Under the pieces are notes generated by a model. That model was not told where the DNA came from. It did not search any database and saw only the letters and a program-made list of their open reading frames with translations. The position numbers were made by a program, and so were the translations under genes. From Thioalbus denitrificans (GTDB taxonomy: Bacteria > Pseudomonadota > Gammaproteobacteria > DSM-26407): a DNA stretch of 64,000 nt. This document shows positions 6,185-47,422 of this stretch, in pieces. Each line of letters starts with the position of its first letter. The first letter of the stretch is position 1. Location: the NCBI RefSeq assembly GCF_003337735.1, contig NZ_QPJY01000001.1:82150-146149 (forward strand), read 5' to 3'.

Positions 6185-6359
6185 CACCACTGTTCCAGGA
6201 TTCAGCCCGGAGGCTGCCACGGACACAGGGGAAGCACCGCCCGCAGAACTGCGCGCCTGGACGGACTCGGTCGGCTGAACCACCCTGCCTCCCCCTGGGA
6301 CCCTCTTAGGTGCCTGTCGGACTTGAGTCTGATCTACTGCGCCGGCGGGGCGTTGCGGA

Positions 6360-7867: not shown

Positions 7868-7905
7868 TGCCCCGAACCTTGCAGTTGAATTAAAGCCCGT
7901 CCGGC

Positions 7906-8214
7906 TTACTGGGACTGGCTCACCATGTAGTCGACGGCAGCCATCAGGTCCTCGTCGGTGCAGTCACCGCAGGTACCGCGCGGCACCATGGCGGTGCCGG
8001 GCTTGCCGTTGAGCGCAACGCCGTGGAGCACGTCCATGCCCTGGGCGATACGCGGAGCCCACGCGGCCTTGTCGCCGAGCTTGGGCGCACCGGCCACACC
8101 GGCGGCATGGCAGGTCTGGCACACCTTGTCGTAAACCGCCTTCCCGTCGGCCGCGACGGCGGTCAGGGAAAGGCTCATGAGACCGGCGGCAGCCAGGATC
8201 GCGAACTTCTTCAT
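7906..8214 (-). CDS. Cytochrome c5-family monoheme protein
   Basis: 102 residues: signal peptide (residues 1-22, ending AVAA), one heme site CQTCH (~32), axial Met in GTAMVPRG, and the extra CGDC pair near residue 83 that marks cytochrome c5. It carries electrons in the periplasm and is probably cotranscribed with the c4 gene. A strong promoter with a leader of about 100 bases precedes it. AGGA stands nine bases upstream of the ATG at 8214. Confidence 0.9.
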   Translation of the reverse strand: MKKFAILAAAGLMSLSLTAVAADGKAVYDKVCQTCHAAGVAGAPKLGDKAAWAPRIAQGMDVLHGVALNGKPGTAMVPRGTCGDCTDEDLMAAVDYMVSQSQ

Positions 8215-8327
8215 AGCGGTAATCCTCCAAATTCTCCCGGTGCGTGCCGTCGTAGCCCGCTGTTGTTGTCGTTACCGGGACAGGGTTAAATGGTAAACTC
8301 CTGTAAACCGATAAAAAATGGCTGACT

Positions 8328-8356
8328 TTTATACCAAGTGGCCACGACCGGGTCAA
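8328..8356 (-). promoter_or_regulatory. Sigma-70 promoter for the c5-c4 cytochrome operon, TTGACC-17-TATAAA
   Basis: Minus strand: -35 TTGACC (8356-8351), 17-base spacer, -10 TATAAA (8333-8328). It points toward the cytochrome genes and lies in the divergent spacer with engB. Confidence 0.75.
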
Positions 8357-8410
8357 CTTGGAGCCGGTCCGGATTGATTCTCCTCATTGACACGGAAGCC
8401 CCTGAACCCA

Positions 8411-9049
8411 ATGCCCCTGAACCCCTTCCGCCAGGCCCGGTTCCTGCTCAGCGCCGCCCAGTTGCGCCAGCTGCCGCCCGACAGCGGCGCCGAGGTGGCC
8501 TTCGCCGGCCGCTCCAACGCCGGCAAGTCGAGCGCGCTGAACGTCATCACCGGCCTCAACAGCCTCGCCCGCATCAGCAAGACCCCGGGCCGGACCCAGC
8601 ACATCAACCTGTTCGAGATCGATGCGGAGCGCCGCCTCGTGGACCTGCCCGGCTACGGCTATGCCAAGGTGCCCGAGGCGATGAAAATCCGCTGGGGCCA
8701 GACCATGGCCCGCTACCTGGAGACCCGGCAGTGCCTGCGGGGGCTGTTCCTGATGATGGACATCCGCCACCCGTTCAAGCCGTTCGACCAGCAGATGCTC
8801 GAATGGTGCCGCGCCCGCGGCATGGCGGTGCATATCCTGCTGACCAAGTCCGACAAGCTGAAGCGCGGTCCCGCGACCACCGCCCTGCAGGCCGTGCGCA
8901 GGACCCTGAAGGCGGAGGCGATGCCGGCCACGGCGCAGCTCTTCTCGGCCCTGAAGCTGACCGGGGTGGAGGAAGCCCGCCTGCAGCTGGCCGAATGGCT
9001 CGGGATCGAACCGGAAGCCGGCCCGCGGGAGAACGCCGGCGGAGCCTGA
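8411..9049 (+). CDS. engB: Ribosome biogenesis GTPase EngB (YihA)
   Basis: Essential GTPase for assembly of the large ribosomal subunit. Motifs: G1 GRSNAGKSSALN (~30), G2 region SKTPGRTQHIN (~53), G3 DLPGYGYAKV (~74), G4 LLTKSDKLKRG (~146), G5 FSALKLTG (~179). The ATG at 8411 (MPLNPFRQARF) fits the family N terminus. A TTG at 8387 in the same frame could start a longer form; neither has a clear ribosome site, so the start is uncertain. It is divergent from the cytochrome operon and convergent with polA and the small RNA candidate. Confidence 0.93.
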   Translation: MPLNPFRQARFLLSAAQLRQLPPDSGAEVAFAGRSNAGKSSALNVITGLNSLARISKTPGRTQHINLFEIDAERRLVDLPGYGYAKVPEAMKIRWGQTMARYLETRQCLRGLFLMMDIRHPFKPFDQQMLEWCRARGMAVHILLTKSDKLKRGPATTALQAVRRTLKAEAMPATAQLFSALKLTGVEEARLQLAEWLGIEPEAGPRENAGGA

Positions 9050-9108
9050 TGCATAACCCAATACTTATCTATCAAGAGGCGAAGATAAGGATTGCGCAAA
9101 CGCCGGAC

Positions 9109-9151
9109 AAAAAAAGACCCCGGTGAGGTCTTGGGGGGGAGGTCCGGGGTC
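9109..9151 (-). terminator. Rho-independent terminator of the candidate small RNA
   Basis: Eight-base stem GACCCCGG/CCGGGGTC (9116-9123 and 9144-9151) and seven T on the minus strand (9115-9109). It would also stop read-through from polA before it reaches engB antisense. Confidence 0.8.
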
Positions 9152-9225
9152 AAGGGCAACCCGGCTTAGGGAGGCCGGGTGGGGTTTCCCGCTCAGGGAG
9201 GGAGCAGCGGGAAGCGCGTCACATT
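9109..9225 (-). ncRNA. Candidate small RNA with three C-rich-loop hairpins, at the E. coli spf position
   Basis: The minus strand between polA and engB can fold into three consecutive hairpins. The first, 9213-9186, has stem UUCCCGCU/AGCGGGAA and loop GCUCCCUCCCUG. The second, 9180-9159, has stem ACCCGGC/GCCGGGU and loop CUCCCUAA. The third, 9151-9116, has stem GACCCCGG/CCGGGGUC and a loop with CCUCCCCCCC, and ends in seven U. All three loops expose CUCCC, complementary to Shine-Dalgarno sequences. In E. coli the order polA, spf (Spot 42), with engB convergent, is the same. No sequence kinship with Spot 42 is claimed. The 5' end is a guess; a GACC-TATC-GGTC repeat lies just upstream at 9243-9254. 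No convincing ORF is present. Confidence 0.6.
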
Positions 9226-9363
9226 GCACACACAGTGAGATAGACCGATAGGTCAGTGCAAAAGTTCCTGCACCGGATGAAATTTTTTAACGGGCGATTT
9301 GGTTCTTTTTAATCAGCGGGTTGGCGCGGAGCCGCGGAAAGGGGCGCGAGAGTTACCGATAGC

Positions 9364-9453
9364 GTGTTCCGTGTTCCGTGTTCCGTGTTCCGTGTTCCGT
9401 GTTCCGTGTTCCGTGTTCCGTGTTCCGTGTTCCGTGTTCCGTGTTCCGTGTTC
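9364..9453. repeat. Tandem heptamer array (GTGTTCC), about 13 copies
   Basis: 90 bases of perfect 7-base repeat in the engB/polA convergent spacer. The same word recurs inverted (GGAACAC) at 15845-15886. Confidence 0.97.
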
Positions 9454-9492
9454 GTCAAGAGCGTCCCGGGAAATCAAGAGCCCGCGCAACCG

Positions 9493-9560
9493 CATCACTC
9501 ATCACTCATCACTCATCACTCATCACTCATCACTCATCACTCATCACTCATCACTCATCA
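9493..9560. repeat. Tandem heptamer array (CATCACT), almost 10 copies
   Basis: 68 bases of perfect 7-base repeat, 39 bases after the GTGTTCC array. No other copy of this word array was noticed in the window. Confidence 0.97.
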
Positions 9561-9650
9561 CGGTGACGAGGAACTGACAACACCCGTACCTGGCGGAGAC
9601 GCCGCCCCCCTCCCGCAAGGGGAGGGGGAGCAGGCCGTGCGGCCTCTCCA

Positions 9651-9746
9651 CGCACTCACGCACTCACGCACTCACGCACTCACGCATTCACGCATTCACG
9701 CATTCACGCATTCACGCATTCACGCACTCACGCAATCACGCAATCA
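9651..9746. repeat. Tandem octamer array (CGCACTCA / CGCATTCA), 12 copies
   Basis: 96 bases of 8-base repeat with C/T variation at one position. The array runs directly into the polA stop codon, whose TGA is part of the last degenerate unit. The same octamer recurs at 15774-15844. Confidence 0.97.
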
Positions 9747-12455
9747 ATGCGCCTCGTCCCAGTTGGCGCCGATGCCTATCTCCACCAGCAGGGGCACCTC
9801 CAGCTCGGCGGCGCCGGTCATGCACTCACGCACCGCTTCGCCGACGGCGTCGATGTCCCCCTCCCCCACTTCGAAGACGAGCTCGTCGTGCACCTGCATG
9901 ATCATGCGGGCGTCCACGCCGGGGTTCTCCTGCAGCCAGGCATCGCAGCGGATCATGGCGCGCTTGATGATGTCCGCGGCGGTGCCCTGCATGGGGGCGT
10001 TGATGGCGGTGCGCTCGGCCGCCTTGCGCCGCTGCAGGTTGCGGGAGTTCACGTCCGGCACGTAGAGACGGCGCCCGGACAGGGTCTCCACGAAGCCCTG
10101 CTCCCGGGCCGCGGCACGGGTGCGCTCCATGAACTCCAGCACCCCGGGGTAGCGGGCGAAGTACTGGTCCATGTAGGTCTGGGCGGCGGCCCGGTCGATG
10201 CCGAGCTGGCGCGCCAGGCCGAAGGCTGACATGCCGTAGATGAGGCCGAAGTTGATGGCCTTGGCGCTGCGGCGCTGCTCGCCGGTGACCTGGTCGAGCG
10301 GCGTGCCGAAGATCTCCGCGGCGGTGGCCTGGTGCACGTCCAGCCCCTGGCCGAAAGCGTCCAGCAGCCCGGGGTCGCGGGAGAGGTGGGCCATGATGCG
10401 CAGCTCGATCTGGGAGTAGTCCGCCGCCAGCAGCCGGCAGCCCGGCGGCGCCACGAAGGCCTGGCGGATGCGCCGCCCCTCCTCGGTCCGCACGGGGATG
10501 TTCTGCAGGTTGGGATCGGAGCTGGAGAGCCGGCCGGTGGCCGCCACCGCCTGGTGGTAGGAGGTGTGCACCCGGCCGGTGACCGGGTTGACCTGCTCGG
10601 GCAGCCGATCGGTGTAGGTGGAGCGCAGCTTGCTCAGCCCCCGGTGCTCGAGGATGAGCCGGGGCAGGGGGAAGTCGAGCGCCAGGTCCTGCAGCACCGA
10701 CTCGGCGGTGGAGGGCTGGCCCTTGGGGGTCTTGGCCAGCACCGGCAGGCCCAGCTTGCCGAACAGGATCTCCTGGATCTGCTTCGGGGAGCCCAGGTTG
10801 AAGGGCTGGCCGGCGGCGGCGCAGGCGGCCTCCTCGAGCTCGTGGATGCGACGGGCCAGCTGGTGGCTCTGGGACCGGAGCATCTCCACGTCCACCAGCA
10901 CGCCGGTGCGCTCCATGCGCGAGAGCACGGGCACCAGGGGCATCTCCACCTCGTGGAACAGCCGCACCAGCGCCGGCACCTCCTCGAGCCGCGGCCACAG
11001 GTTGCGGTGCAGCTGCAGGGTGACATCGGCATCCTCGGCGGCGTAGGGGCCGGCGGTCTCCAGGGGCACCTGGTCGAAGGTGATCTGCTTCGCCCCCTTG
11101 CCGGCCACGTCCTCGTAGTGGATGGTGCGCCGGCCCAGGTACTTCAGCGCCAGGGTGTCCATGTCGTGGCGGTTCTGGGCGCTGTCGAGCACGTAGCTCT
11201 CCAGCATGGTGTCGCAGGCCACGCCGCGCAGCCGGATGCCGTGGTTGGCCAGCACGCTCATGTCGTACTTGAGGTTGTGGCCGAGCTTGGCCCGCCCGGG
11301 GTCCTCCAGCAGCGGCCGCAGACGCTCCAGCACCGCCTCGCGGTCGAGTTGCGCCGGCGCCCCGGGGTAGGCGTGGGCGAGCGGCACGTAGGCGGCCTCC
11401 CCCGGCTCCACGCTGAAGGAGACCCCGACGATCCGCGCCTCCATGTAGGCGAGGCTGGTGGTCTCGGTGTCGAAGGCGAACAGCTCCGCCGCCTCCAGCC
11501 GCGCCAGCCAGGCCTCCAGCGCCGACTCCTCGAGCACCAGGTCGTAGACGGGCGCCTCCGTCCCCTCCCCGCCGGCGCTCTCCCCGCCCCCGTCCGCCTC
11601 CAGCAGCTCCGCGAGCCAGGACTTGAACTCCATGCGCCGGAACCACTCGATGAGCGTCTCGCGGTCGGGTTCGCCCAGGCGGAGCGCTTCCGGGTCCTCG
11701 GGCAGCTCCAGGTCGACGCGGATGGTGGCGAGCCGGCGGGAGAGGGGCAGCCGCTCCAGGCTCGCGCAGAGGTTCTCGCCGGCCTTGCCCTTGATCTCCG
11801 CGGCGTGCTCGACGATGCCGTCCAGGCTGCCGTACTCGGTGAGCCACTTCACCGCCGTCTTCGGCCCCACCTTGGGCACGCCGGGGATGTTGTCGGAGGT
11901 GTCGCCCACCAGGGCCAGGAAGTCGATGATCCGCTCCGGCGGCACCCCGAACTTCTCCTCCACCCCGGCCCGGTCCAGCACGGTGTTGGACATGGTGTTC
12001 ACCAGGGTGACGTGGTCGTTCACCAGCTGGGCCATGTCCTTGTCGCCGGTGGAGATGACCACCGGCTGCCCCGCGGCCGCGGCCCGGGCGGCGAGGGTGC
12101 CGATGACGTCGTCGGCCTCCACGCCCGGCTCCACCAGCAGCGGCAGCCCCAGCGCCCGCACGATGGCGTGCAGCGGCTCCACCTGGGAGGCCAGTTCATC
12201 GGGCATGGGCGGCCGGTTGGCCTTGTACTCGGCGAACAGCTCGTCGCGGAAGGTCTTGCCCCTGGCGTCGAACACCACCGCCATCCGCTCCGGCGCGTAG
12301 TCGGCCAGCAGCCGGCGCAGCATGTTCACCACCCCGTAGACGGCGCCGGTGGGCTCGCCGCGGGAGTTGGTCAATGCCGGCAGGGCGTGGAACGCGCGGT
12401 AGAGGTAGGAGGATCCGTCCACCAGGACGAGGGGTCTGGTCTTGTTTTCGGTCAT
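9744..12455 (-). CDS. polA: DNA polymerase I
   Basis: Repair and Okazaki-fragment polymerase, 903 residues with all three domains. The 5'-3' nuclease domain occupies residues ~1-290 ([38 protein letters not shown]). The 3'-5' exonuclease domain (~310-500) keeps DTETTS and [10 protein letters not shown], so proofreading looks intact. The polymerase domain has motif [13 protein letters not shown], motif [17 protein letters not shown] and motif [11 protein letters not shown]. The stop codon abuts the octamer array, so the 3' untranslated region is repetitive. It is divergent from the DUF2782 gene. Confidence 0.98.
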
Positions 12456-35433: not shown

Positions 35434-36450
35434 TCACTCTTCCCCTTCGTCCAGAACCTCCGGCACATAGACGCGACGGAGCGGCAAGAGCCCCTTGTAG
35501 GGTGAGTCGAACTGCTCATAGTGCTGGAAGATGAGTGACACCAGCTCCTCTCCATCAATCAACCGCAGATTGCTTTTCGACTTGGCAAAGTTCCGGGCCT
35601 GTGCGGTAAATGTTCCGAGCGTTACGAGCAATCCGAACTCCTTCTCGCCCACCTTGCCATAGAGAGCGGAGACAACCGGATCGCCGATGCTTCCCTCGGA
35701 GCTCTTCACCTGCACTTTCACAATGGGTGGTTCGAACCCAAGCTCGTCCTTGTGGGCAACGATGTCGATTCCGCCATCCGGACCTGCGGAAGAAATGCGG
35801 GTCCGGTAGCCCATGGTGTTGAGGAGCTGCGCGACAAAGTCCGCAAACGGATGGCCCTTTACCTCCTGCGCAAGGCGTTTGAGTACGAAGTCCCTGGTTG
35901 TCTCCTCGATATCCTTGGCGACCGCGGCGACGGACTCGTCCTTGCTGACTTGAGGTGCATCAAGCCGTCCTTCGAGCGCCAACCGAAATTCGTCCGCGTA
36001 ATTCTTTACCAGGAAAAGACTCATGGCCGAACCAATTTCGTAAAGTGCCCCCTGGGTGAACTTGGAGCGTGGCACGGCACGCAGCCACTTGGCCGGCCGC
36101 ATATGGGGATAGCTTGGCTCCAGCTTGGAGTCGAAATGGTATCCACCTTCGATACGACCGATATGTACCTTTCGATCCTGCTTCGATGGGTAAACCACCA
36201 GATCACCCGGCTTCATCTCGTGGGCAAAGCGAAATGTCTGGCCAGCGATGCTCGGAATGGCGCCAGGCTTCTTGTCTGGGAACACTTCCGCAACACGCGC
36301 CTTGAATGCCTCCCGATCAGGGGCAATCCCGGACAAGTCGCCCAGTTTGCTCCAGCCGATGGCTATCCGATTCTTCTTCAGAAAGAGCGTGTCGGCATCA
36401 CCGGTCTTGCCCGCGTGTATTCCCCAGATCGTCGTTTCCTTGTTTTCCAC
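35434..36450 (-). CDS. Mrr-like restriction endonuclease
   Basis: 338 residues. The N-terminal ~140 residues (ETTIWGIHAGKTGDADTLFL, RFAHEMKPGDLVVYPSKQDR) resemble the PUA/EVE-like sensing module of Mrr-type enzymes. The C-terminal PD-(D/E)xK nuclease is clear: HPFADFVAQLLNTMGYRTR, then PDGGIDIVAHKD, and VKVQVKSSEG, giving catalytic D...QxK. Such enzymes cut modified or foreign DNA (type IV-like). The start is GTG at 36450, chosen for GGGAGGG just upstream; the open frame runs back to an ATG at 36483. It is the last gene of the hsd/CBASS run, 107 bases after the HNH gene. Confidence 0.82.
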   Translation of the reverse strand: MENKETTIWGIHAGKTGDADTLFLKKNRIAIGWSKLGDLSGIAPDREAFKARVAEVFPDKKPGAIPSIAGQTFRFAHEMKPGDLVVYPSKQDRKVHIGRIEGGYHFDSKLEPSYPHMRPAKWLRAVPRSKFTQGALYEIGSAMSLFLVKNYADEFRLALEGRLDAPQVSKDESVAAVAKDIEETTRDFVLKRLAQEVKGHPFADFVAQLLNTMGYRTRISSAGPDGGIDIVAHKDELGFEPPIVKVQVKSSEGSIGDPVVSALYGKVGEKEFGLLVTLGTFTAQARNFAKSKSNLRLIDGEELVSLIFQHYEQFDSPYKGLLPLRRVYVPEVLDEGEE

Positions 36451-36557
36451 GATTCCCTCCCGACACCCATCAGAGATCAACACCGCGACTGCTGGTCATG
36501 AAGAACTGGTTCCGCCGCTGCAATCACGGCCAAGATGACCGGCCAATGGCCAACCTA

Positions 36558-37481
36558 TTATTGGGCCATGAACCGCTCATAGCGCCGCTCAAGCAGCACC
36601 GGGCTGGGTCGCTTGGCGGCATTTCTCGGCACGATCAGTTGCCTGCCATGCATTTCCTTCAGACCGTGCAACAGCATGGGTCCGTCGCTCTCTTCCAGGA
36701 TGTCTCGTCGGACTTCCACCACATAATCCGGCCTCACCCCGACGAAACTCCGGTCAAAGGCCGCGTGGTGCAGCTTGCACAAGGACAGGCCGTTGGTGAC
36801 GATGGGATCGCCCCCCGGCTCTCCATCGGGAATAATGTGCGCCGCATCAAGCAGTTCGGCGTGCTTCAGCCGGCACATGGCACACTGCTCATGGTAGGCC
36901 TCCAACACCCGCTCCCGGAAGGCGCGCTGGTGCACCCGCTGGCGGACGGTTGCCGTGATGTAGGCCCTGCGCAGTTCGCCCGAATCCTCTCTCACCCCAT
37001 CAGGAATAAACGCTTCACCTGGCGAGTAGAGCGAGGTGTTCGCATCGTCCGCCTGCACGGTGAAGGTCAGGCGTTCGGGATTATCACCGACGATAAAGAC
37101 GGGCCAGAGCGCCAGGTACTTCCCCTTCACCACCTGGTAGAAGTAGACCAGCGGCATGCGCAGGCGCATTGCCTCCCGGAGGCCACGGTTATCCCGATGC
37201 CCGGGATCGGTCCCCCGGTAGCGGTATTGAATGAGTGATTCCGTGAGATAGCCGTCGTCATAGGGACCATTGGGAATCGTGGTTATGGAGATGGGGATAT
37301 CGAGAACCGCCGGTTTGAAGATGCCCTGGGGTCCGAGGAGCGGGACGCGGTGTCCTTCGAATTCAAAACCCTGCGCAAGGAGGGTTCGTGGCAGAACATC
37401 TCCGTGCCTATCCACCTGCCTCTCCAACCAGCTGAAGGCCTCCCGGCGGACCAGCGCATCGTGCCGGCCGGCGCCTATCAC
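36558..37481 (-). CDS. HNH endonuclease with N-terminal DNA-recognition-like domain
   Basis: 307 residues. The C-terminal HNH nuclease (~190-250) has EQCAMCRLKHAELLDAAHII and NGLSLCKLHHAAFDR, with CxxC and CxxH zinc ligands and the AAHI catalytic His. The N-terminal half has SLIQYRYRGTDPGHRDNRGL and PLVYFYQVVKGKYLALWPVF, a block I know from stand-alone restriction-type HNH enzymes whose recognised base modification is unclear. The start ATG overlaps the hsdM stop (ATGA), so its expression is tied to the methyltransferase. It could be a modification-dependent nuclease complementing the type I system. Confidence 0.8.
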   Translation of the reverse strand: MIGAGRHDALVRREAFSWLERQVDRHGDVLPRTLLAQGFEFEGHRVPLLGPQGIFKPAVLDIPISITTIPNGPYDDGYLTESLIQYRYRGTDPGHRDNRGLREAMRLRMPLVYFYQVVKGKYLALWPVFIVGDNPERLTFTVQADDANTSLYSPGEAFIPDGVREDSGELRRAYITATVRQRVHQRAFRERVLEAYHEQCAMCRLKHAELLDAAHIIPDGEPGGDPIVTNGLSLCKLHHAAFDRSFVGVRPDYVVEVRRDILEESDGPMLLHGLKEMHGRQLIVPRNAAKRPSPVLLERRYERFMAQ

Positions 37482-38980
37482 GCAACTTCCTCCGCCACGC
37501 CATTGCCCAGATCGTTGGCAATCTCCCGGAACTGCGCCAGGGCCGCCTCCAGATCCTCGACGATCTCCTGTGCAATGACCTCGGGGGCCGGCAGATTCTC
37601 GGTATCGGAGAGGGATTCGTCCCGGAGCCAGAAGATATCCAGGCTCGCCTTGTCGCGGGCGACAAGCTCCTTGTAGTCATAGGCGCGCCAGCGACCGTCC
37701 GGTTTCCGCTTCTCGCTCCAGGTGGCCTTGCGGTCGTGGCGGTTGTCCGGGTTGAAGCAGCGGACGAACTCCTCCAGATCCTCACGCCTGAGGGGATTAG
37801 TCTTCAGGGTGAAGTGGATATTGGTGCGCAGGTCGTAGATCCAGAGTTTCCGCGTCCACGGCTTCTCCGAGGCGGGCTTCTTGTCGAAGAAGAGCACGTT
37901 CGCCTTCACACCCTGGGCGTAGAACAGGCCGGTGGGCAGGCGCAGCAGGGTATGGACATCGCACTCGTGGAGCAGCTTGCGGCGGATGGTTTCGCCGGCG
38001 CCGCCCTCGAACAGCACATTGTCGGGCACCACCACGGCGGCGCGGCCGTTCTGCTTGAGCAGCGTCTTCACATGTTGGACGAAGTTGAGCTGCTTGTTGG
38101 AGGTGGTGGTCCAGAAGTCATCGCGCTCGATGGTGTCGCGCTCCCTGGTGACCTTACCCTCCTCACCCACGATGGTAGTGCTGCTCTTCTTGCCGAAGGG
38201 CGGATTGGTGAGCACCAAGTCAAAGCGATCGCCGGGGTCGGCAGCTAGCGAGTCGCCCACCACGATGGGCTCGAAGTCCTGGCTACCGATGCCGTGCAGC
38301 AGCATGTTCATGGCGCACAGCCGCGCAGTGGCCTGCACCAGTTCCCAGCCCTTGAAAGTTTCCTCTTTGAGCTTGGTCTTCTGTGGCTTGGTCAGGTTGA
38401 GGTTGTGCTTCACCACATAGTCGTGGGCCGCGAGAAGAAAGCCACCAGTGCCGCAGGCCGGGTCGCTAACGGTCTCCCCGGGTTTCGGGGCCATGACATC
38501 CACAATCGCCTGGATCAGCGGGCGCGGGGTGAAGTACTGGCCGGCGCCGGACTTGGTGTCCTGGGCGTTCTTCTCCAGCAGCCCTTCATAGGCGTCGCCC
38601 TTCACATCGGCGCTCATCGACACCCACTGTTCCTTGTCGATGAGATCGACCACCAGCCGCCGCAGCTTGGCCGGGTCCTGGAATTTGTTCTGCGACTTGT
38701 TGAAGATCAGCCCGAGCAGGCCCTTCTTGTTACCCAGCGCCTCTAGGGTGTGGCGATAGTGATCGAACAGCTCGTCGCCGTCTTTCTTGATGAGGCTTGG
38801 CCAACCGTACTGCTCCGGCACCGGGCTCTTCTGGTTGTACGGTGCCCTGGTGCGCTCGTCGGCCATCTTGAGGAACAGCAGATAGGTGAGCTGTTCGACG
38901 TAGTCGCCGTAGGACATGCCGTCGTCGCGCAGGACATTGCAGTAGTTCCAGAGTTTTTGGACGATGTTTGAAGTATTCAT
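37478..38980 (-). CDS. hsdM: Type I restriction-modification methyltransferase subunit HsdM
   Basis: N6-adenine methyltransferase subunit, 500 residues. The N-terminal helical HsdM_N domain (NIVQKLWNYCNVLRDDGMSY) is followed by the SAM-binding motif VSDPACGTGGFLLAAHDYV (~165) and the catalytic LTNPPFGKKSS (~245). Together with HsdS it protects and recognises DNA. It starts 13 bases after the stop of the nucleotidyltransferase gene and overlaps the HNH gene (ATGA). In usual type I operons hsdM directly adjoins hsdS; here a capV-cdn pair stands between them. Confidence 0.95.
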   Translation of the reverse strand: MNTSNIVQKLWNYCNVLRDDGMSYGDYVEQLTYLLFLKMADERTRAPYNQKSPVPEQYGWPSLIKKDGDELFDHYRHTLEALGNKKGLLGLIFNKSQNKFQDPAKLRRLVVDLIDKEQWVSMSADVKGDAYEGLLEKNAQDTKSGAGQYFTPRPLIQAIVDVMAPKPGETVSDPACGTGGFLLAAHDYVVKHNLNLTKPQKTKLKEETFKGWELVQATARLCAMNMLLHGIGSQDFEPIVVGDSLAADPGDRFDLVLTNPPFGKKSSTTIVGEEGKVTRERDTIERDDFWTTTSNKQLNFVQHVKTLLKQNGRAAVVVPDNVLFEGGAGETIRRKLLHECDVHTLLRLPTGLFYAQGVKANVLFFDKKPASEKPWTRKLWIYDLRTNIHFTLKTNPLRREDLEEFVRCFNPDNRHDRKATWSEKRKPDGRWRAYDYKELVARDKASLDIFWLRDESLSDTENLPAPEVIAQEIVEDLEAALAQFREIANDLGNGVAEEVA

Positions 38981-38993
38981 CAGACGTTACTGT

Positions 38994-40019
38994 CTAGTAC
39001 AAAATTCGTGCTTCTTCGAGTTTGCGGAAGCTGCGCGCCAACCCCTGTCTGATGTCTCGCAAGAGCCCATGTACTTCCCGCCGAAGCTCATCGAGACCTC
39101 TAAACGATGCCCCGTCTTCACAAAATATCTTTCTAGTTCCGTTTGGGACGGATAAGGACATCGCATAAGCTTGATCCTGCGAAAGGTAATCAAGCCAATT
39201 CGCAGCTTTTTCCACGAGCAAAAGCTCTTGACCCGATGGAACCATCCAATGGTACTGCGGGGCTGCCCAGGCAACGGATGCTATGTCATAGCTAGAAAAT
39301 CTAACCGGTTCATCGGCATCGTATTTTAAGGACTTGAGTAGACGTATTACCTTGCGCAGATTTCCTATCTCTTCCTGATCACGCTCATGTATGCGAGCAT
39401 TGTGCAAAAAAGGTTTATTACTAATTCTCTTTCTTGCGTCTTTATCAAGCACCGAGACGCCGCGATAATGCGCGCCGTGGCCTGCCTTGTACTCCGGGGT
39501 TTCCAGCCAACTCGAAAAAACCACATCTATTTTTCGACGTAAGGAGCCGCCGGAGATGGCCACGGCCTTTGAACCGCTACAGTCCACAGTGGCCTTCGGA
39601 TACGCCCTGATGAGGGCATCTTCAGCAAATCCCCTTAGATCTAATAGATCCTGAAGCGGATCGCCCTTATATGGGCTAGATGGTTGAAGCGGATGCTCAA
39701 GCGATACGAATCGAGTCTCGATTACAAGAAGATCAATATCACTGTGTGCTTTGATGTGCGTGTCAGAGGTCACTGACCCCTGATGTTCGAACTCCACCTT
39801 CCGGCTGACGGCGTCATATCCTGTTACAAGTTGGCCTTGAATACGATCACTTTCTGCAAAGGTGTTGTTCGTGTACTCGGGGTCAATAGGCAGCATCGCA
39901 CCAACTGCGTACCGCACCGCATCATCTTCATCCAAGCGCTCATATACCTCATTGACCGCTTTCGCCAAATGCATCTGGGGATCGATACGCCTCGCTCGTA
40001 ATTTGTCTACTCTAGCCAT
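38994..40019 (-). CDS. cGAS/DncV-like nucleotidyltransferase (CD-NTase), CBASS signal synthase
   Basis: 341 residues with a DNA polymerase beta-type fold. The hallmark is GSVTSDTHIKAHSDIDLLVI: GS at 81-82, then catalytic D94 and D96, with the third acid D165 in RRKIDVVFSSW. A helical C-terminal part (~215-341) follows, as in CD-NTases and OAS proteins. Such enzymes make cyclic (oligo)nucleotides on phage infection. The clade and product cannot be told from sequence reading. The ATG at 40019 lies inside the end of capV (eight-base overlap). G+C is visibly lower than in hsdM; for example 23 of the 60 bases at 39361-39420 are G or C. Alternative: another MNT/CCA-like transferase, less likely given the partner. 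Confidence 0.82.
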   Translation of the reverse strand: MARVDKLRARRIDPQMHLAKAVNEVYERLDEDDAVRYAVGAMLPIDPEYTNNTFAESDRIQGQLVTGYDAVSRKVEFEHQGSVTSDTHIKAHSDIDLLVIETRFVSLEHPLQPSSPYKGDPLQDLLDLRGFAEDALIRAYPKATVDCSGSKAVAISGGSLRRKIDVVFSSWLETPEYKAGHGAHYRGVSVLDKDARKRISNKPFLHNARIHERDQEEIGNLRKVIRLLKSLKYDADEPVRFSSYDIASVAWAAPQYHWMVPSGQELLLVEKAANWLDYLSQDQAYAMSLSVPNGTRKIFCEDGASFRGLDELRREVHGLLRDIRQGLARSFRKLEEARILY

Positions 40020-40950
40020 GATTAACTCCAAATAATTTAGCGAGCGCCTGCTCTTGAGTTCCGAACGCCTCCCGCCCAAGTTCGAACAACTTTCTAAGCA
40101 TCTTCGGATCAGATTCCAAGAGGTCGGTAGCCAGTGATGTATCCCTATAGACCCCATTCACCCTCACAGTGGAAACGTCCTCGAAAGTTAACTTCCTCAG
40201 TATCTCAACTGTGTTCGAATTACTCTCTAGCGTCGCTTCAAGAAGTTGTATTGGCCACACAGACTTCGCAAAGTCCCACCAATGCTTTTTCACGGGGAAG
40301 TCCCCTGTACCTATTGCACAAAGCCGTATGTCTTGGCGTTTAATTGACAGTGCTCGTTCCGCATCAATCAGGGCAAACATGCTAGGGTTGTTTGCGACAA
40401 AACCACCGTCTATTACTTCCACTTCGACGTCATCGATTGTCAGTTTTCGTTTTTCGAAAAACGGCGCAGCTGCTGAGGAAGCCAGCAGACACTCATGGAG
40501 TGGAACCCCAAAGCCGGGGACAAATGTTGCTTTACGCCCCTGAGCCAGTTCGGCATTACTCTTAAAAATTAGAGGCCGTCTATGATCAGTGCGGGTTGCC
40601 ACTATCGCCAGCATGCAGCGCGCGTCAGAGAATTCACATTCTCCGAATTCCTCTTTGGCGACATCTTCTAACGCAGCTGTCCGCCCATTCGTAGTACGGC
40701 ATGACATGACACGTGGAATGAACTCCATGTACCTCTCAAAGGTTTGCTTGGCTGTGTAACCTGTCGCAAGATAAGTGGCGATAATTGCCCCCGTACTTGT
40801 TCCGTACATCAATTCAAAATGCACGGAGAGCTTTTTCCCCAATTGCGCTTCAATCTCCGCGAGGGCACCAAGAGTAAATGCCCCTCGCGAGCCACCTCCA
40901 TCAAGTGTCAAGATCGAGAAGGGCTGCCCGTTAAGCTGTACTTCATCCAT
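40012..40950 (-). CDS. Patatin-like phospholipase, CapV-type CBASS effector
   Basis: 312 residues. Oxyanion loop DGGGSRG (17-23), nucleophile elbow GTSTG (Ser52) and catalytic Asp181 in VIDGGFVANNP are all intact. Family knowledge: CapV phospholipases are switched on by cyclic dinucleotides and destroy the inner membrane, killing the infected cell. The direct pairing with a CD-NTase identifies the role. The ATG at 40950 overlaps the hsdS stop by eight bases (ATGGATGA), so it is translated by coupling with hsdS. An ATG at 40968 inside hsdS is also in frame. G+C is low relative to the core genes. No ubiquitin-like Cap2/Cap3 genes are adjacent, so this would be a minimal type I CBASS. Confidence 0.87.
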   Translation of the reverse strand: MDEVQLNGQPFSILTLDGGGSRGAFTLGALAEIEAQLGKKLSVHFELMYGTSTGAIIATYLATGYTAKQTFERYMEFIPRVMSCRTTNGRTAALEDVAKEEFGECEFSDARCMLAIVATRTDHRRPLIFKSNAELAQGRKATFVPGFGVPLHECLLASSAAAPFFEKRKLTIDDVEVEVIDGGFVANNPSMFALIDAERALSIKRQDIRLCAIGTGDFPVKKHWWDFAKSVWPIQLLEATLESNSNTVEILRKLTFEDVSTVRVNGVYRDTSLATDLLESDPKMLRKLFELGREAFGTQEQALAKLFGVNHG

Positions 40951-42346
40951 GGCAGACTCTACCCACAAATGATCGGCTTAGAATTGCTTGTCGCAAGCGC
41001 TCTGCGCGCTGGAGGTTGGCGTCCACTTGGGCCTCGGTCACGCGCAGGAGGGATAGGCGACGGTCGACTTCGGCGACGATGCGCTGTTGTTCGGCGATGG
41101 GAGGAACGGCTACAGAGGCAGCACGCACGTCTTCCAGATTCAAGGTCTTGCGCGCCACTTCATGGGACTTTGAAGTCATCTCAACGACCTTGGCCGGATT
41201 CCGAAACCATATTTCAAACCAGTTAGCATCAACTTCCACTGCAAGCGGGACAACACCCACCGCACGCGCAACGTTGGCCCCCTTGAGAGCATCCTGCACC
41301 AATGCTGTCCTTCCGATAGCGCCAACAAGCGTGATCAGGAATTCGCCACCCACGAGTCTTGTACGAGGATACTTGGCAGCGATCGCTGGCGATATTCTCT
41401 TAAGTGCATCAAGGTCGACTTGACCATCATCAATATCACCAACGCGAATAAAAGGGATTCCGTCTGCCAAGTCATCTCCGGGCTGCAACACACCGTATGC
41501 GCAAGGTCGGTTAGCTAGATTGAGTTGTTCCACTGTTGCCCACACCCACCCCTCCGGCAATTCGGGCAGGTCGGTGGTGTCGGGCGCGGCGGGTTCTTTG
41601 TATTTGCCCTTCCCTTTCCACTGGCTGCGGCGGGTTTCGAGGATGCGTTGCAGGAGTTCGGCGCCGTTTTCGTAGCTGCGGCCTTCGCGGCGGGCGAGTT
41701 CGGCTTCGGTTTCGACGAGGCGGCCTTCAACGGCGGCTTTGAGGACTGCGGCCTTGTAGCGCTTGAGATTGGCCTTGACACGCTTGAGGTTGGCGACGGC
41801 TTCATCGAGGCGGGAGAACTGTTTTTCTATTTCCGCGACGATGCGTCTTTGTTGGTCGAGGGGTGCAACAGGTATCGGCACCTGAGCAAGCTTTGAAGCG
41901 TTCACATTAGGAACAGCGATTCCTGCTTTGCTCGCTCCGATTGCCTCCCAATACGATGGACTCTTGAGATAGTAATAAAAATACTTTATGTCGATTCCAG
42001 TTTTTGGACGAAACCGAATCAAGTATGAAGCGAAAACAGCTCGCTCAGGTTTGTTGATGAGGAAACTCACCCCGATCGAACCGGCACGGGAAATCAGAAT
42101 ATCGTCCGTCTCAACCAGATACTTCTCAACATCTTCAGGTACCTCTGTGCAATAAGGCACTGACGACCAATCAACAGAGCCTGAAGTTATATCGGTCGTT
42201 CGGAGGAGCTTCAGCTCACCAGTTTCGTGGTTAGCCTTTGTTGTCCAACCGTATTGCGGCTTTTCTGAAACAGCACCAAGCGTTGACCACTCCCACCCAG
42301 CGGGGAGGCCATTTGCTAGTGGGACTGCGCTATCGTTGCAACTCAT
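40943..42346 (-). CDS. hsdS: Type I specificity subunit HsdS, shortened C terminus
   Basis: 467 residues, two target-recognition domains. TRD1 starts at LPAGWEWSTLGAVSEKPQYG and ends with the conserved region VPIPVAPLDQQRRIVAEIEK; TRD2 starts at LPELPEGWVWATVEQL and ends at VAVPPIAEQQRIVAEVDRRL. The TRDs are AT-richer than the central conserved helix, as usual for swapped TRDs. The protein stops at LRQAILSRSFVGRVCHG; most HsdS proteins continue with a tail like GELVPQDP plus ~15-20 residues. The missing tail coincides with the start of capV. The start overlaps the hsdR stop (ATGA). Confidence 0.92.
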   Translation of the reverse strand: MSCNDSAVPLANGLPAGWEWSTLGAVSEKPQYGWTTKANHETGELKLLRTTDITSGSVDWSSVPYCTEVPEDVEKYLVETDDILISRAGSIGVSFLINKPERAVFASYLIRFRPKTGIDIKYFYYYLKSPSYWEAIGASKAGIAVPNVNASKLAQVPIPVAPLDQQRRIVAEIEKQFSRLDEAVANLKRVKANLKRYKAAVLKAAVEGRLVETEAELARREGRSYENGAELLQRILETRRSQWKGKGKYKEPAAPDTTDLPELPEGWVWATVEQLNLANRPCAYGVLQPGDDLADGIPFIRVGDIDDGQVDLDALKRISPAIAAKYPRTRLVGGEFLITLVGAIGRTALVQDALKGANVARAVGVVPLAVEVDANWFEIWFRNPAKVVEMTSKSHEVARKTLNLEDVRAASVAVPPIAEQQRIVAEVDRRLSLLRVTEAQVDANLQRAERLRQAILSRSFVGRVCHG

Positions 42347-45252
42347 GCTGCTAACATCTCATTCAGCTCTTCAATGATCGCGTTCAGCTTGTCGCCGAAC
42401 AGTTGATAGACCTTGCCCAATCCGCCCTCCTGAGCGAACGGAGCGTACTCGAAATCCTCCGGTTCGATGCCAAGATTGGCAGCGATGTGGTCGCGGATCA
42501 TTTCGAGCCATCTGATTTGCTCTGGGGAGAAGCGAGTTGCTGCAACCCCACCCTCACCCTTGCCCTCTCCCCTGCCCTCTCCCTGAGGGAGAGGGGGTTG
42601 GGAAGCCAGCCATGCCCTGAAGTTGGCGTTGACGCGTTCGGGGAACGGGATGAGTTCGTTGTCCTGGTGGATGGCAAATCTCACCAACGAGACGAGGTCG
42701 GTGAGGATGCGATTGCCGCCTACTCCGCGCACCTTCGATCTTTCCAGTGCAGCATAGGCACCCCAGAGCTGCGACTTGTCCCAGAGGTGTGGCGGCTTCT
42801 GGATGGCGTCGGCCAGTTCCTGGACGGCCTCCAGGGTGAGGCGGTGCTTGTAGGGTTTGCTGTAGAGCACTTGCAGGGCGGTGATTTCATCCTTGTGCTC
42901 CTGGATGAACTGCTCGAAGGACTGGACCATGCCTTTGGCGCGGTCGAGGGCTTCGGGGGAGAAGGTGGCTTCGAGCACTTCATCGGCACTGACGATATCG
43001 ATGACGACTTCGTTTTTCTTCTTGGTCGCAATGATGAGCTCTCGCAACTCAGGATCGTTCAACGGTTTGATGGCGTCGAGGATGATCTCCCGGCGCGCGG
43101 TGTTGATAGCCTGGTCGGTAATCGGCTTGTCGTCGTCGGGAGCGATGCCCAGATCCGCCCTGGCTTGTTCGAGGTGGCGGTCCGGGTTCAGGGCGGCGAC
43201 GATGCGGTGGCTGAGTTCCTTTACACTCAGGCCGCCGGAAAGCGCGCGGATTCGATCGTCGTCCTCCGCACTCATGCGGTGCTCCATGCGGGCGAGGCGG
43301 CCGGCGAGCGAGGTGAGCACATCGTCCTCGGTGTTGCCGAAGGCGACCGCCTGCATCAGTTTTTCGAAGCTGACGGTGGGCTTCTGCTCCATGGGGCGCG
43401 AGTCGGTTTTGTCGCGCTCGCAGACACCGACGGCGTCGACGATGACGAAGTGGTCCTTGACCTTGGCGTCGGGAGTGACGCTCTGCAGATCATCGGGCTT
43501 GATCACGCGCACGCCGCGGCCCTTCATCTGCTCGAAGAAGGCGCGGGATTTGACCGCGCGCATGAACAGGACCACTTCCACCGCCTTGATGTCAGTGCCG
43601 GTGGCAATCATGTCCACGGTCACCGCGATGCGCGGCATGGGACTGGTGCGGAACTCGTTGATGAGGTCCTTCGGCTTCGCGCCGGTGGTGCGGTAGGTGA
43701 TCTTCTGGGCGAAGTCGTTCCCCTTGCCGAACTCCTCGCGCACGATCTCGACGATGTTCTCGGCGTGGGCGTCGTCCTTGGCGAAGATGAGGGTCTTGGG
43801 CACCCACTCGCGGCCGGGGAAGATTTCAGTGAAGAGCTTGTCGCGGTAGGTCTGGATGATCTTGCGGATCTGGTCCGGAGCGACCACGTCGCGGTCGAGC
43901 TGGTTGGGATCGTAGCTGAAATCGTCGTCGAGCTGTTCCCAGCGCTTCCTGCGGGTGTCGCGCTCCTGAATCTGCACCGAGTAGCCCGCCTCAACCTCGG
44001 AGCCCTGTTCGGTGATGGCGGTGCGGATGCGGTAGACGTCGTAGTTGACGTTGACCCCGTCGGCCACGGCCATCTCGTGGTTGTATTCCATCACCAGGTT
44101 CTGGTGGAAGAAACCGAACGTCTGCTTGCTGGGCGTGGCAGTGAGGCCGATGAGGTAGGCGTCGAAGTATTCCAGCACCTGCGCCCAGAGGTTGTAGATG
44201 GAGCGGTGGCACTCGTCGGTGACGATGACATCGAAGCTCTCGATGGGGATGGCCGGGTTGTACTCGATGGGCTCGGGCTGTTTGAACAGGCCGCCGAGCT
44301 GGTCCACCGATTCTTCTTCCAGCTCATCCGGCAGCTCCTTGCCTTTGAGCATGGAGTACATGCGCTGGATGGTGCTGATGCAGACCCGTGCGGTGGTATC
44401 GAGGGTGTTGCTCGTTAGGCGCTGGACGATGTACTCCTCGGTGAACTTGAAGTTGTTGTAGGGCGAGGCGTACTGCTGGAACTCCTTCAGCGTCTGGTCG
44501 CCGAGGTTGCCGCGGTCCACCAGGAACAGCACGCGCCGGGCGCCGGTAAACTTGATGAGCCGGTAGATGAAGGAGATGGCGGTGAAGGTTTTGCCCGAGC
44601 CGGTGGCCATCTGAATGAGGGCGCGGGGGCGGTTTTCCCGCAACGACTTTTCCAGGTTCTCGATGGCCGTCACCTGCGCCGGCCAGAGCCCTTCTGTGAC
44701 GAGCGGCGGCAGATGGGCAATGCGGGCAAGGAGGGTCTGGGCGCTGTAGACCGGATGATCCTCTGCCGCCTTGGGCACCTCACCCCCATCCGGGCCTTCC
44801 CCTTGGGAGGGGGAAGAGGTGACTACGAAGGCGTCGGCAAGCCAGGTTGCCAGCATCTCGGGTCGGTGGAAGGCGAAGACCGGGCGGGAGCGGGGCTGGG
44901 GGTCGAGGCCGTTGGTGAAGCGCGTCTCCACGCCAGTGGACTGGTAGGCGAAGGGCAGGGGATTGCCCCAGCGCGGCAGGCCGTCGGGCAGGCCATGAGT
45001 GTACTTGTCCGACTGGGTCTCGACGCCGGTGAGGGTGACACCCGCCTTCTTGGCCTCGATGACACCGGCCGCCTGACCGTCCAAGTAGAGCAGGTAGTCG
45101 GCGAAGCCGTAGCCGCTCTTCAGGGAAAACTCCCGGATAGCGACACCCCGGGCAGCCTGGATGTTGGCCGCACCGGCATCCTGCACCTGCCAACCGGCCG
45201 CCTGCAGAAGCTTGTCGATGGTCTCCCTGGCGCTGCGCTCCAGCTCAGCCAT
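42343..45252 (-). CDS. hsdR: Type I restriction subunit HsdR (EcoEI-like)
   Basis: 969 residues from ATG 45252 (MAELERSARETIDKLL), with GGGAGGG a little upstream. The N-terminal nuclease (GYGFADYLLYLDGQAAGVIE then AKK: D...ExK) is followed by an SF2 motor: Walker A MATGSGKTFTAI, VTDECHRSIYN, LTATPSKQTFG, VDMIATGTDIKAVEVVLF. The C-terminal EcoEI-type domain binds the methylase. Two repeat-derived low-complexity inserts lie in frame: SSPSQGEGPDGGEVPK (~150) and PPLPQGEGRGEGKGEGG (~900). They sit in linkers and do not break motifs. It is the first gene of the defence run. Confidence 0.93.
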   Translation of the reverse strand: MAELERSARETIDKLLQAAGWQVQDAGAANIQAARGVAIREFSLKSGYGFADYLLYLDGQAAGVIEAKKAGVTLTGVETQSDKYTHGLPDGLPRWGNPLPFAYQSTGVETRFTNGLDPQPRSRPVFAFHRPEMLATWLADAFVVTSSPSQGEGPDGGEVPKAAEDHPVYSAQTLLARIAHLPPLVTEGLWPAQVTAIENLEKSLRENRPRALIQMATGSGKTFTAISFIYRLIKFTGARRVLFLVDRGNLGDQTLKEFQQYASPYNNFKFTEEYIVQRLTSNTLDTTARVCISTIQRMYSMLKGKELPDELEEESVDQLGGLFKQPEPIEYNPAIPIESFDVIVTDECHRSIYNLWAQVLEYFDAYLIGLTATPSKQTFGFFHQNLVMEYNHEMAVADGVNVNYDVYRIRTAITEQGSEVEAGYSVQIQERDTRRKRWEQLDDDFSYDPNQLDRDVVAPDQIRKIIQTYRDKLFTEIFPGREWVPKTLIFAKDDAHAENIVEIVREEFGKGNDFAQKITYRTTGAKPKDLINEFRTSPMPRIAVTVDMIATGTDIKAVEVVLFMRAVKSRAFFEQMKGRGVRVIKPDDLQSVTPDAKVKDHFVIVDAVGVCERDKTDSRPMEQKPTVSFEKLMQAVAFGNTEDDVLTSLAGRLARMEHRMSAEDDDRIRALSGGLSVKELSHRIVAALNPDRHLEQARADLGIAPDDDKPITDQAINTARREIILDAIKPLNDPELRELIIATKKKNEVVIDIVSADEVLEATFSPEALDRAKGMVQSFEQFIQEHKDEITALQVLYSKPYKHRLTLEAVQELADAIQKPPHLWDKSQLWGAYAALERSKVRGVGGNRILTDLVSLVRFAIHQDNELIPFPERVNANFRAWLASQPPLPQGEGRGEGKGEGGVAATRFSPEQIRWLEMIRDHIAANLGIEPEDFEYAPFAQEGGLGKVYQLFGDKLNAIIEELNEMLAA
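42546..42606. repeat. Small palindromic repeat inserted in frame in hsdR (3' part)
   Basis: The core palindrome CCCTCTCCC...GGGAGAGGG lies at 42575-42595, preceded by CCCTCACCCTTGCCCTCTCC. On the coding strand it reads as a Gly/Glu/Pro-rich linker. This is a widely scattered bacterial spacer repeat, here within a gene. Confidence 0.75.
44779..44820. repeat. Second small palindromic repeat in frame in hsdR (5' part)
   Basis: CACCTCACCCCCATCCGGGC followed by CTTCCCC...GGGGAAG; read by hsdR as a SSPSQGEGPDGGEV linker between the nuclease and motor domains. Confidence 0.7.
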
Positions 45253-45592
45253 TGGTGGGCTGCCCTCCCTGGTGTGGGACTTTTTCCCACAGGACTTTAG
45301 CAGAGATGCGGGGTGAATATCGCCGATCTCCCTGAATCGTGTGGGATATTTCACACTCGGGTAGGGGGCGATGACGGATGAAGAGACCTTAACCCGTATT
45401 TCTCTCCATTCCACTGCGGCGGCGGCCCCTTTCTCGCCGTGAAGGGGCGCCATACCCCGGCCAGATAAATCTGGCCCTACGTCGTGTCGGCTACGCCGGC
45501 GCGGGATTCGGTCCGTGCCACGGTCACGCGGGCACCTCGGCGCCCGCGCTTCACTCCACGGTGAGAGATCCGGGCTATCCGGTTCGCCTGCC
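45253..45592. other. 340-base spacer between glmS and hsdR, with a GTAG-type REP
   Basis: Contains the hsdR leader and, at 45459-45480, an inverted copy of the CCAGATAAATCTGG...CCCTAC palindrome (reverse complement starts GTAGGGCC), the same family as 15749-15770. No gene seen. Probably also the glmS 3' region. Confidence 0.6.
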
Positions 45593-47422
45593 CTACTCCA
45601 CCGTCACCGCCTTCGCCAGGTTCCGCGGCTGGTCCACGTCGGTGCCCTTGAACACGGCGGCGTGGTAGGCCAGGAGCTGGAGGGGGACGGTGAAGACGAT
45701 GGGGGAGATGGCGTCGTGGACGGGGGCGACGGGGAGGACTTCGACGCCGGGGCCGGACTGGATGCCGGTGTGCTCGTCGGCGAAGACGATGAGCTCGCCG
45801 CCGCGGGCGCGGACTTCCTGGAGGTTGGAGCGCAGTTTCTCCAGCAGCTCGTTGTTGGGGGCCACGGCCACCACGGGCATGTCGGCGTCCACCAGGGCCA
45901 GGGGGCCGTGCTTGAGCTCGCCGGCGGGGTAGGCCTCGGCGTGGATGTAGGAGATCTCCTTGAGCTTGAGCGCGCCTTCCATGGCCACCGGGTAGTGGGC
46001 GCCGCGGCCGAGGAACAGCGCGTGGTGCTTGTCGGTGAAGCGCTCGGCGATGGCGCGGATCTCGTCGTTGAGGCCCAACACCTCCTCGATGCGCCCGGGC
46101 AGCTCCCGGAGCTCCCGCACCAGGTGGGCGGCGCTGGTGGCGTCCAGGGCGTGGCGGCGGCCCAGCGCCAGGGTGAGCAGCATCAGCGCCACCAGCTGGG
46201 TGGTGAAGGCCTTGGTGGAGGCCACCCCGATCTCGGGGCCGGCGCGGGTCATCAGCACCAGGTCGGCCTCCCGCACGAGCGAGCTCTCGGGGACGTTGCA
46301 GATGGCGAGGGTGGCGCGGTAGCCCAGCGTGCGCGCCTCGCGCAGGGCGGCCAGGGTGTCGGCGGTCTCGCCGGACTGGGAGATGGCCACGAACAGGGCG
46401 TCGGCGGGCACCACCGGGCGGCGGTAGCGGAACTCGCTCGCCACCTCCACGTGGCAGGGGACGCCGGCCAGCCCCTCCAGCCAGTAGCGGGCCACCTGGC
46501 CGGCGTGGAAGCTGGTGCCGCAGGCGATGATGTGCACCGAGCGCACGCCGTCGAAGATATCCGGGGCTGTGGTGCCGAAGCTCTCCTCCAGCAGCCGGTC
46601 GTCCACCAGCCGCCCCTCCAGGGTCTCGGCCACGGCGGCGGGCTGCTCGAAGATCTCCTTGAGCATGTAGTGGCGGTACTCGCCCCGCTCCACCGCGTCG
46701 GCGGTGAGCTCGGTGGTGCGCACGGGCCGCTCCACCGCCGCACCGTCGTTGTAGACCCGGAAGCCGTCGCGGCCCAGATCCACCACGTCGCCCTCCTCCA
46801 GGAAGGCGAAGCGCTGGGTCACCGGCAGCAGCGCCCCCACGTCGGAGGCGATGAAGTGCTCGCCGATGCCCGCGCCCACCACCAGCGGGCTGCCGCTGCG
46901 GGCGGCCACCAGCCGGCCCGGCTCGTCCACGCTCACCACGCCCAGGGCGTAGGCGCCGCGCAGCACCGCCACCGCGGCGGTCACGGCGGCCAGCAGGCCG
47001 CTGCCGCCGGAGAGCTCGCGGTGGACGAGGTGGGCGATCACCTCGGTGTCGGTGTCGGAGGTGAAGGCGTAGCCCGCCGCCTCCAGCTCGGCGCGCAGCT
47101 CGGCGTGGTTCTCGATGATGCCGTTGTGGACCACCACCACCCGCTCGCCGGAGACATGGGGGTGGGCGTTGTTCTCCGTGGGCGCGCCGTGGGTGGCCCA
47201 GCGGGTGTGGGCCACGCCGGTGGTGCCGGCGATGGGCTCCCGGGCGAGCCGGTCGGCCAGGCTCCGCACCTTGCCCACCGCGCGCAGGCGCTGCAGCGCG
47301 CCGTCGGGGCCCAGCACAGCCATTCCCGCCGAGTCGTAGCCGCGGTACTCCAGCCGCCGCAGCCCCTCGAGCAGGATCGGCGCCACGTCCCGCTGCGCCA
47401 CCGCACCCACGATTCCACACAT
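45593..47422 (-). CDS. glmS: Glutamine--fructose-6-phosphate aminotransferase (isomerizing)
   Basis: First step of UDP-GlcNAc synthesis, 609 residues, the usual length. The N-terminal Ntn-hydrolase half starts [13 protein letters not shown], so Cys2 becomes the nucleophile; THTR-type block [10 protein letters not shown] and [11 protein letters not shown] follow. Two SIS domains ([23 protein letters not shown]; then [27 protein letters not shown]) bind fructose-6-phosphate, and the end [12 protein letters not shown] is the conserved tail. It lies downstream of glmU on the same strand. No glmS ribozyme was seen upstream. Confidence 0.97.

Follow-up and report, generated by a model that had tools for sequence, protein, structure and literature searches.

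How does a signalling-based defence module come to lie inside the operon of a restriction-modification (R-M) system, and do the two act through one mechanism or through two? This question is raised by a locus of Thioalbus denitrificans found in a stretch of 64,000 nucleotides (contig NZ_QPJY01000001.1, positions 82,150 to 146,149; hereafter the window). Between 35434 and 45252, seven leftward genes lie on the minus strand in the order hsdR-hsdS-capV-cdn-hsdM-HNH-Mrr, every frame being open. The pair capV-cdn, predicted to encode a cyclic-oligonucleotide-based antiphage signalling system (CBASS), is placed between the specificity and methylase genes of a type I R-M system. Based on a survey of related operons, we consider it likely that the junction of hsdS and hsdM (S-M junction) takes up swappable cargo, and that CBASS and R-M form a layered, probably co-transcribed and mechanistically independent defence.

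Organization of the operon

The restriction subunit is encoded by hsdR (42343-45252, ATG start, 969 aa), which was recognized by its Pfam matches (EcoEI_R_C at 1.5e-41, ResIII, and HSDR_N) and by intact Walker A, DECH, and E-A-K nuclease motifs. It is followed by hsdS (40943-42346, 467 aa; PADLOC Specificity_I 7e-99), while the DNA methylase subunit hsdM (37478-38980, 500 aa; PADLOC MTase_I 6e-206) retains the motifs DPACGTGG and NPPFG. With HsdR, HsdM, and HsdS all present and their motifs intact, the type I R-M operon looks intact. The genes between hsdS and hsdM are capV (40012-40950, 312 aa), coding for a CapV-type patatin phospholipase of the CBASS effector type, and cdn (38994-40019, 341 aa), coding for a clade E member of the cGAS/DncV-like nucleotidyltransferases (CD-NTases), the CBASS cyclases. 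Six of the seven genes were identified directly by profile searches, the nucleotidyltransferase (NTase) being the exception in Pfam.

The junctions are short throughout the upstream half, with a 4-bp ATGA overlap of hsdR and hsdS and overlaps of 8 bp each at hsdS/capV and capV/cdn. The downstream half comprises a 13-bp gap between cdn and hsdM, a 4-bp overlap of hsdM and HNH, and a 74-bp gap between HNH and Mrr. Gene order, strand, and overlaps had been described in an initial annotation of this DNA, and all match the coordinates of the open reading frames (ORFs). The ATG codons of capV (40950) and cdn (40019) agree with those of homologues; the program-made ORF list starts both genes further upstream. 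No sigma-70 promoter-like or terminator-like sites above chance level were detected inside the operon.

The S-M junction in related operons

In a class-level sample, 31 of 369 genomes contain relatives of hsdM, as do 15 of 399 genomes of a phylum-level sample, the window's own genome being included in both counts; the hsdM search in the order of the host covered only two genomes. From the regions around these relatives 40 were fetched, and in 27 of these a single contig carries both hsdS and hsdM. All but one of these 27 relatives show an S-M gap of at least 592 bp, with lengths being approximate where hsdS is fragmentary. The exception is L183, in which hsdS and hsdM directly adjoin, overlapping by 4 bp.

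The occupants differ in nearly every relative. They include Schlafen/AlbA_2 (L140, L154, L179), AbiE (L141, L143, L158), Fic (L145, L150, L186), Bro-N (L147), DarTG (L151), GmrSD (L143, L153), a reverse transcriptase (L174), DUF4917 (L177), DUF3800 (L155, L178), HEPN (L181), TIR (L182), Abi_2 (L184), an Mrr-like domain (L172), and a NucS-like protein (L157). PADLOC contributed Dazbog-like (L144), PDC-M28 (L148), PtuA/Septu-like (L187), and ThsB (L182) assignments, and several occupants are without known function. For L141 and L186, in which the hsdS end is off the contig or undetected, the cargo is given as upstream of hsdM only. Plasmid-borne copies carry DUF262 in Gemmobacter, a HIRAN protein with a second ORF in Rhodococcus, and an AAA ATPase in Roseomonas; in a plasmid copy of Vibrio campbellii, hsdS and hsdM are adjacent. 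In L182, the ThsB-like TIR protein of Thoeris (5446-6393) is the sole cargo ORF, ThsA not being seen between hsdS and hsdM.

Judged by these gene neighborhoods, the S-M junction is a standard cargo slot of this R-M family and CBASS is a new occupant of it. The initial annotation had regarded the junction as an exceptional site, a view that had to be given up in light of the 26 occupied junctions and of the mlo ORFs of Campylobacter jejuni (PMC5183652).

To read the borders of the slot, the DNA of the window was aligned with that of L140, L143, L158, and L172, and the alignments cover hsdR together with conserved stretches of hsdS. An aligned hsdS end was obtained for L140 and L172; there the match breaks off 33 bp upstream of the hsdS stop codon (40976) or slightly earlier. 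It sets in again, for all four relatives, with the opening base of hsdM (38980). These break points delimit a slot on the minus strand from 38981 to 40975, reaching from the conserved hsdS 3' end to the hsdM start codon and filled by capV-cdn. The GC content at third codon positions (GC3) is 0.84 in hsdR and 0.85 in hsdM, versus 0.55 in hsdS and 0.49 in both capV and cdn. Because of the break points and the low GC3 shared by hsdS, capV, and cdn, the simplest reading is that hsdS and the cargo would be exchanged together between conserved hsdR and hsdM arms.

The exact arrangement was not encountered a second time. When 84,980 species genomes were scanned using the alignment of the cyclase, by two peptide patterns that diverged copies may escape, 80 loci were obtained. 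In none of them is the cyclase flanked by hsd genes of the same operon; a few show weak methyltransferase or HsdS matches several kb away. Viral contigs provided four cyclase loci, none with hsd genes. CapV searched at E 1e-45 in the 369 class-level genomes returned the window's own copy only, and tblastn detected neither capV nor cdn in the S-M gap of any sampled relative besides the window. The order hsdS-patatin-NTase-hsdM, for which the initial annotation suggested searching other genomes, consequently has no second case in the sample. The same annotation named a unique arrangement combined with a broken R-M system as speaking against its reading: the arrangement is unique in the sample, but the R-M system is not broken.

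The capV-cdn pair

A Pfam search with the NTase gave no match, and its identification is owed solely to dedicated libraries and to its fold. PADLOC places it among the CBASS cyclases (7e-104), and its nearest matches in sequence are the CdnE enzymes 6wt9 and 6wt8. Its AlphaFold model, built on 37 relatives, reached a mean pLDDT (predicted local distance difference test) of 91.9, and the top 14 PDB matches of this model in Foldseek are all CdnE (E 3e-20 to 2e-10). Neither profile nor fold searches placed the protein outside the CD-NTases, in support of its being a genuine member. Within an alignment of 37 sequences, G81-S82, D94, D96, and D165 are invariant; the three acids that the initial annotation had seen in the NTase are therefore intact. 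N201, which is also invariant, and H206 align with the lid residues N169 and H174 of ClCdnE, and the lid-1 Asn of clade E picks uridine at the acceptor site (PMC10442399). Based on this match and this rule, the product probably contains uridine, with the second base not predicted. The lid-3 motif was not placed since the sequence alignments end before it.

CapV is matched by Pfam Patatin (1.8e-24) and PADLOC Effector (2e-98). Its patatin motifs GTSTG (S52) and DGG (D181) confirm the intact Ser-Asp dyad noticed earlier. CapV stays below the NCBIfam cut-offs for CBASS/DS2 lipases, scoring 333 bits against 400 for NF053870 (DS2_1) and 120 against 200 for NF041079; because of the former shortfall we count it as a relative of DS2_1 and do not call it a member. 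The nearest solved relative is 9iom, a phospholipase activated by cUMP-AMP (2.4e-75), a kinship that fits the predicted uridine signal.

In its gene content, capV-cdn fits a two-gene type I CBASS, the function being predicted from the genes. Cap2, Cap3, and HORMA/TRIP13 partners are absent from the operon, the neighbors being the hsd genes, HNH, and Mrr. The description of the pair as a minimal type I CBASS of CD-NTase and CapV-type patatin, tightly spaced on one strand within an R-M operon, was upheld in this respect. With type I CBASS of a CapV-type patatin and a clade E CD-NTase it shares overlapping genes in patatin-then-cyclase order, intact active sites, and the effector kinship to 9iom; it differs by its position inside an hsd operon and by a cyclase from a group whose usual partner is Cap15. 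Of the 80 cyclase loci, about 70 carry an ORF of roughly 175-265 aa directly upstream of the cyclase, mostly with two predicted transmembrane segments, and all five of these upstream partners that were tested match Cap15 (PF18153). The plasmid relatives of CapV (40-44% identical) adjoin a different NTase of ~295 aa. Since the kin of the cyclase usually pair with Cap15 and the plasmid kin of the patatin with another NTase, the window joins a Cap15-type cyclase to a DS2_1-like patatin as a mixed pair. The 8-bp overlap starting ATGGCTAG at the cdn start recurs in L012 and L034, where it links Cap15 to cdn.

The rarity of this cyclase-effector combination and its occurrence in a single genome raise the possibility that the pair is a recent insertion, non-functional or mismatched in that its signal is unfit for the patatin, and merely not yet lost. 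We regard this as unlikely, because the frames are open and the catalytic residues intact, the predicted uridine signal suits a relative of a cUMP-AMP-activated effector, and the same two families are found side by side in two Pedobacter genomes (L054, L066), there in opposite order and beside AbiL-like genes. In these Pedobacter loci (about 7400-11916), AbiL-like AAA and partner genes are followed by members of the two families, and hsd genes are absent from the neighborhood.

The genome of the window also contains a second, separate CBASS (L204, 3712-7941; G000:C2, about 20.7-24.9 kb), consisting of a patatin, a 380-aa cyclase, and an E1-E2 protein. This locus looks like a type II CBASS, and a 169-aa ORF after the E1-E2 protein may be Cap3.

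Comparison with known type I loci

Additional genes within type I operons have precedents. The hsd loci of C. jejuni contain intervening ORFs named mlo (between hsdS and hsdM) and rlo (between hsdR and hsdS; Miller et al. 2005, cited in PMC5183652) and share with the window the order R-S-M and extra ORFs at the S-M position (PMC5183652). With capV-cdn between hsd genes of one operon, the window contains intervening ORFs of the rlo/mlo type, here recognizable as CBASS.

In enteropathogenic Escherichia coli, DarTG2 lies between hsdS and hsdR of an RptR-controlled type I R-M island, at a site described as a potential recombination hotspot (PMC12255303). This island likewise embeds an abortive-type module in a type I R-M operon (PMC12255303), although at the other junction; DarTG in the S-M gap occurs in the relative L151. 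The hallmarks of an RptR island were not found in the operon, where hsdR is the first gene, no RptR-like gene is present among the ORFs, and the upstream palindromes are not TAGCTA repeats. The TgvAB type IV system, encoded by tgvAB between hsdR and hsdS of the VPI-2 type I operon of Vibrio cholerae (PMC11411939), is similar as a two-gene defence module inside a type I operon (PMC11411939). It differs in position and in being type IV restriction instead of cyclic-nucleotide signalling. The classical suicide gene of a type I locus is prrC in EcoprrI, whose product PrrC is activated when the R-M enzyme is inhibited (PMC12707154). Here too a suicide effector is encoded within the type I locus (PMC12707154); activation by inhibition belongs to PrrC, whereas the likeness of the window rests on gene position.

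The literature searched thus documents type I R-M operons with embedded toxin-antitoxin or type IV modules, and CBASS cargo is new there: no CBASS inside an hsd operon was found in the searchable literature, with most subscription papers and bioRxiv-only preprints being outside its reach.

Probable layered defence and the question of coupling

In the mechanism that we infer for the locus, covering a single transcription unit, the identity of the product, membrane attack, phage defence, and the independence of both arms, the cyclase would sense infection and form a cyclic dinucleotide, probably containing uridine. This would switch on the patatin to attack the membrane, by which phage spread would be stopped. 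Separately, the R-M system would cut unmethylated incoming DNA. CBASS and R-M would probably share one transcript, with translation coupled via the short overlaps, each following its own mechanism. From the gene order, the initial annotation had suggested that the R-M system could act first, with CBASS coming in later as a suicide arm, and that the two layers would be coupled in their regulation. The pair capV-cdn probably arrived, and would be replaceable, as cargo beside hsdS, with the conserved hsdR and hsdM serving as recombination arms.

Several points weigh against this picture. The exact gene order is seen in one genome only, and the rarity of the cyclase-patatin combination elsewhere means that signal and receptor need not match. 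The promoter scan was confined to the sigma-70 type, and the assembly of the sister genome described below is fragmented, its deletion junction needing to be checked.

The position inside an R-M operon and the PrrC precedent within a type I locus (PMC12707154) could also indicate a wiring of CBASS to the R-M system that makes it fire when the latter is inhibited or fails, with the cyclase sensing R-M subunits, cut products, or a phage anti-restriction protein. We consider such wiring improbable. The slot hosts many unrelated modules, which implies no common contact with the R-M system; close relatives of the cyclase sit outside R-M operons, together with Cap15; and a CdnE03 cyclase was found to sense phage RNA (PMC10686824). 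Very unlikely in our view is the combined notion that CBASS guards the R-M system and that the S-M slot is a general socket recruiting exchangeable suicide effectors responsive to R-M failure. Independent layering is preferred over guarding because the unrelated occupants imply that the R-M system needs no specific contact with its cargo.

The survey suggests that a defined socket, extending from the hsdS end to the hsdM start codon, is maintained in one R-M family and receives widely differing defence modules by exchange, perhaps together with hsdS. As a sequence marker, this socket could help to find defence genes not yet known, and it offers a direct test of R-M and abortive systems acting together. 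In addition, the recombination of a Cap15-type cyclase with a patatin represents a testable point on the matching of CBASS signals and receptors.

Sister genome and flanking region

One other genome of the genus, L196, has the same flanks, with 97% nucleotide identity in glmS and 96% in a radical-SAM gene. Retained between these flanks are the hsdR promoter region, including both palindromes (see below), and about 78 bp of hsdR, this remnant being joined in frame, with 3-4 bp of microhomology, to the final ~33 bp of hsdM, after which HNH follows at 97%. Everything from hsdR through hsdM is missing as one block, and a former presence of capV-cdn there cannot be seen. The fusion (L196, 9930-10030) of the first ~26 hsdR codons to the last ~10 hsdM codons amounts to a 36-aa ORF ending at the HNH overlap, which may keep HNH translated. 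Mrr is replaced in L196 by a helicase-type ORF of 1698 aa.

Least probable of all is an addiction effect, in which the S-M placement would be selected chiefly because cargo loss breaks the methylase, defence synergy being secondary: many cargos are toxin-antitoxin or abortive modules and the slot borders are clean, but the sister genome dropped the block while keeping HNH, showing that retention is not strict, the loss of a type I R-M system generally costs less than that of a type II system, and the idea overlaps largely with layered defence by exchangeable cargo.

Upstream of hsdR, two palindromes on the minus strand, GTGTGAAATATCCCACAC (45339-45356) and GTGGGAAAAAGTCCCAC (45274-45290), are possible operators of the operon; no regulator gene was recognized in the operon alongside them. 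An operator common to the R-M family was rejected, the palindromes being missing from more distant relatives. The same applies to an operator regulon, as the perfect second palindrome occurs once in the genome and matches with one mismatch are no commoner than in a backward control.

The operon is located directly downstream of glmS (region of 45453-45593), where defence-type genes are present in the sister genome as well. The region downstream of glmS is the classical attachment spot of Tn7. A tRNA-Thr call at 47186-47283, lying within glmS on the opposite strand, was taken as false.

Downstream nuclease genes

The last gene of the operon (35434-36483, minus strand, 349 aa, GTG start as listed) encodes an Mrr-type nuclease (Mrr_cat 7e-27; PADLOC PDC-S02, 6e-139). 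The initial annotation had correctly included it in the gene list, while the span given there, 36558-45252, leaves it outside. The HNH nuclease gene (36558-37481, minus strand, GTG start) codes for 307 aa with a Pfam HNH_2 match at 1.7e-8, and no Pfam family was matched by its N-terminal ~180 residues. Towards its C-terminus the protein is similar to phosphorothioate-dependent HNH enzymes, and because of this likeness it may be a modification-dependent nuclease.

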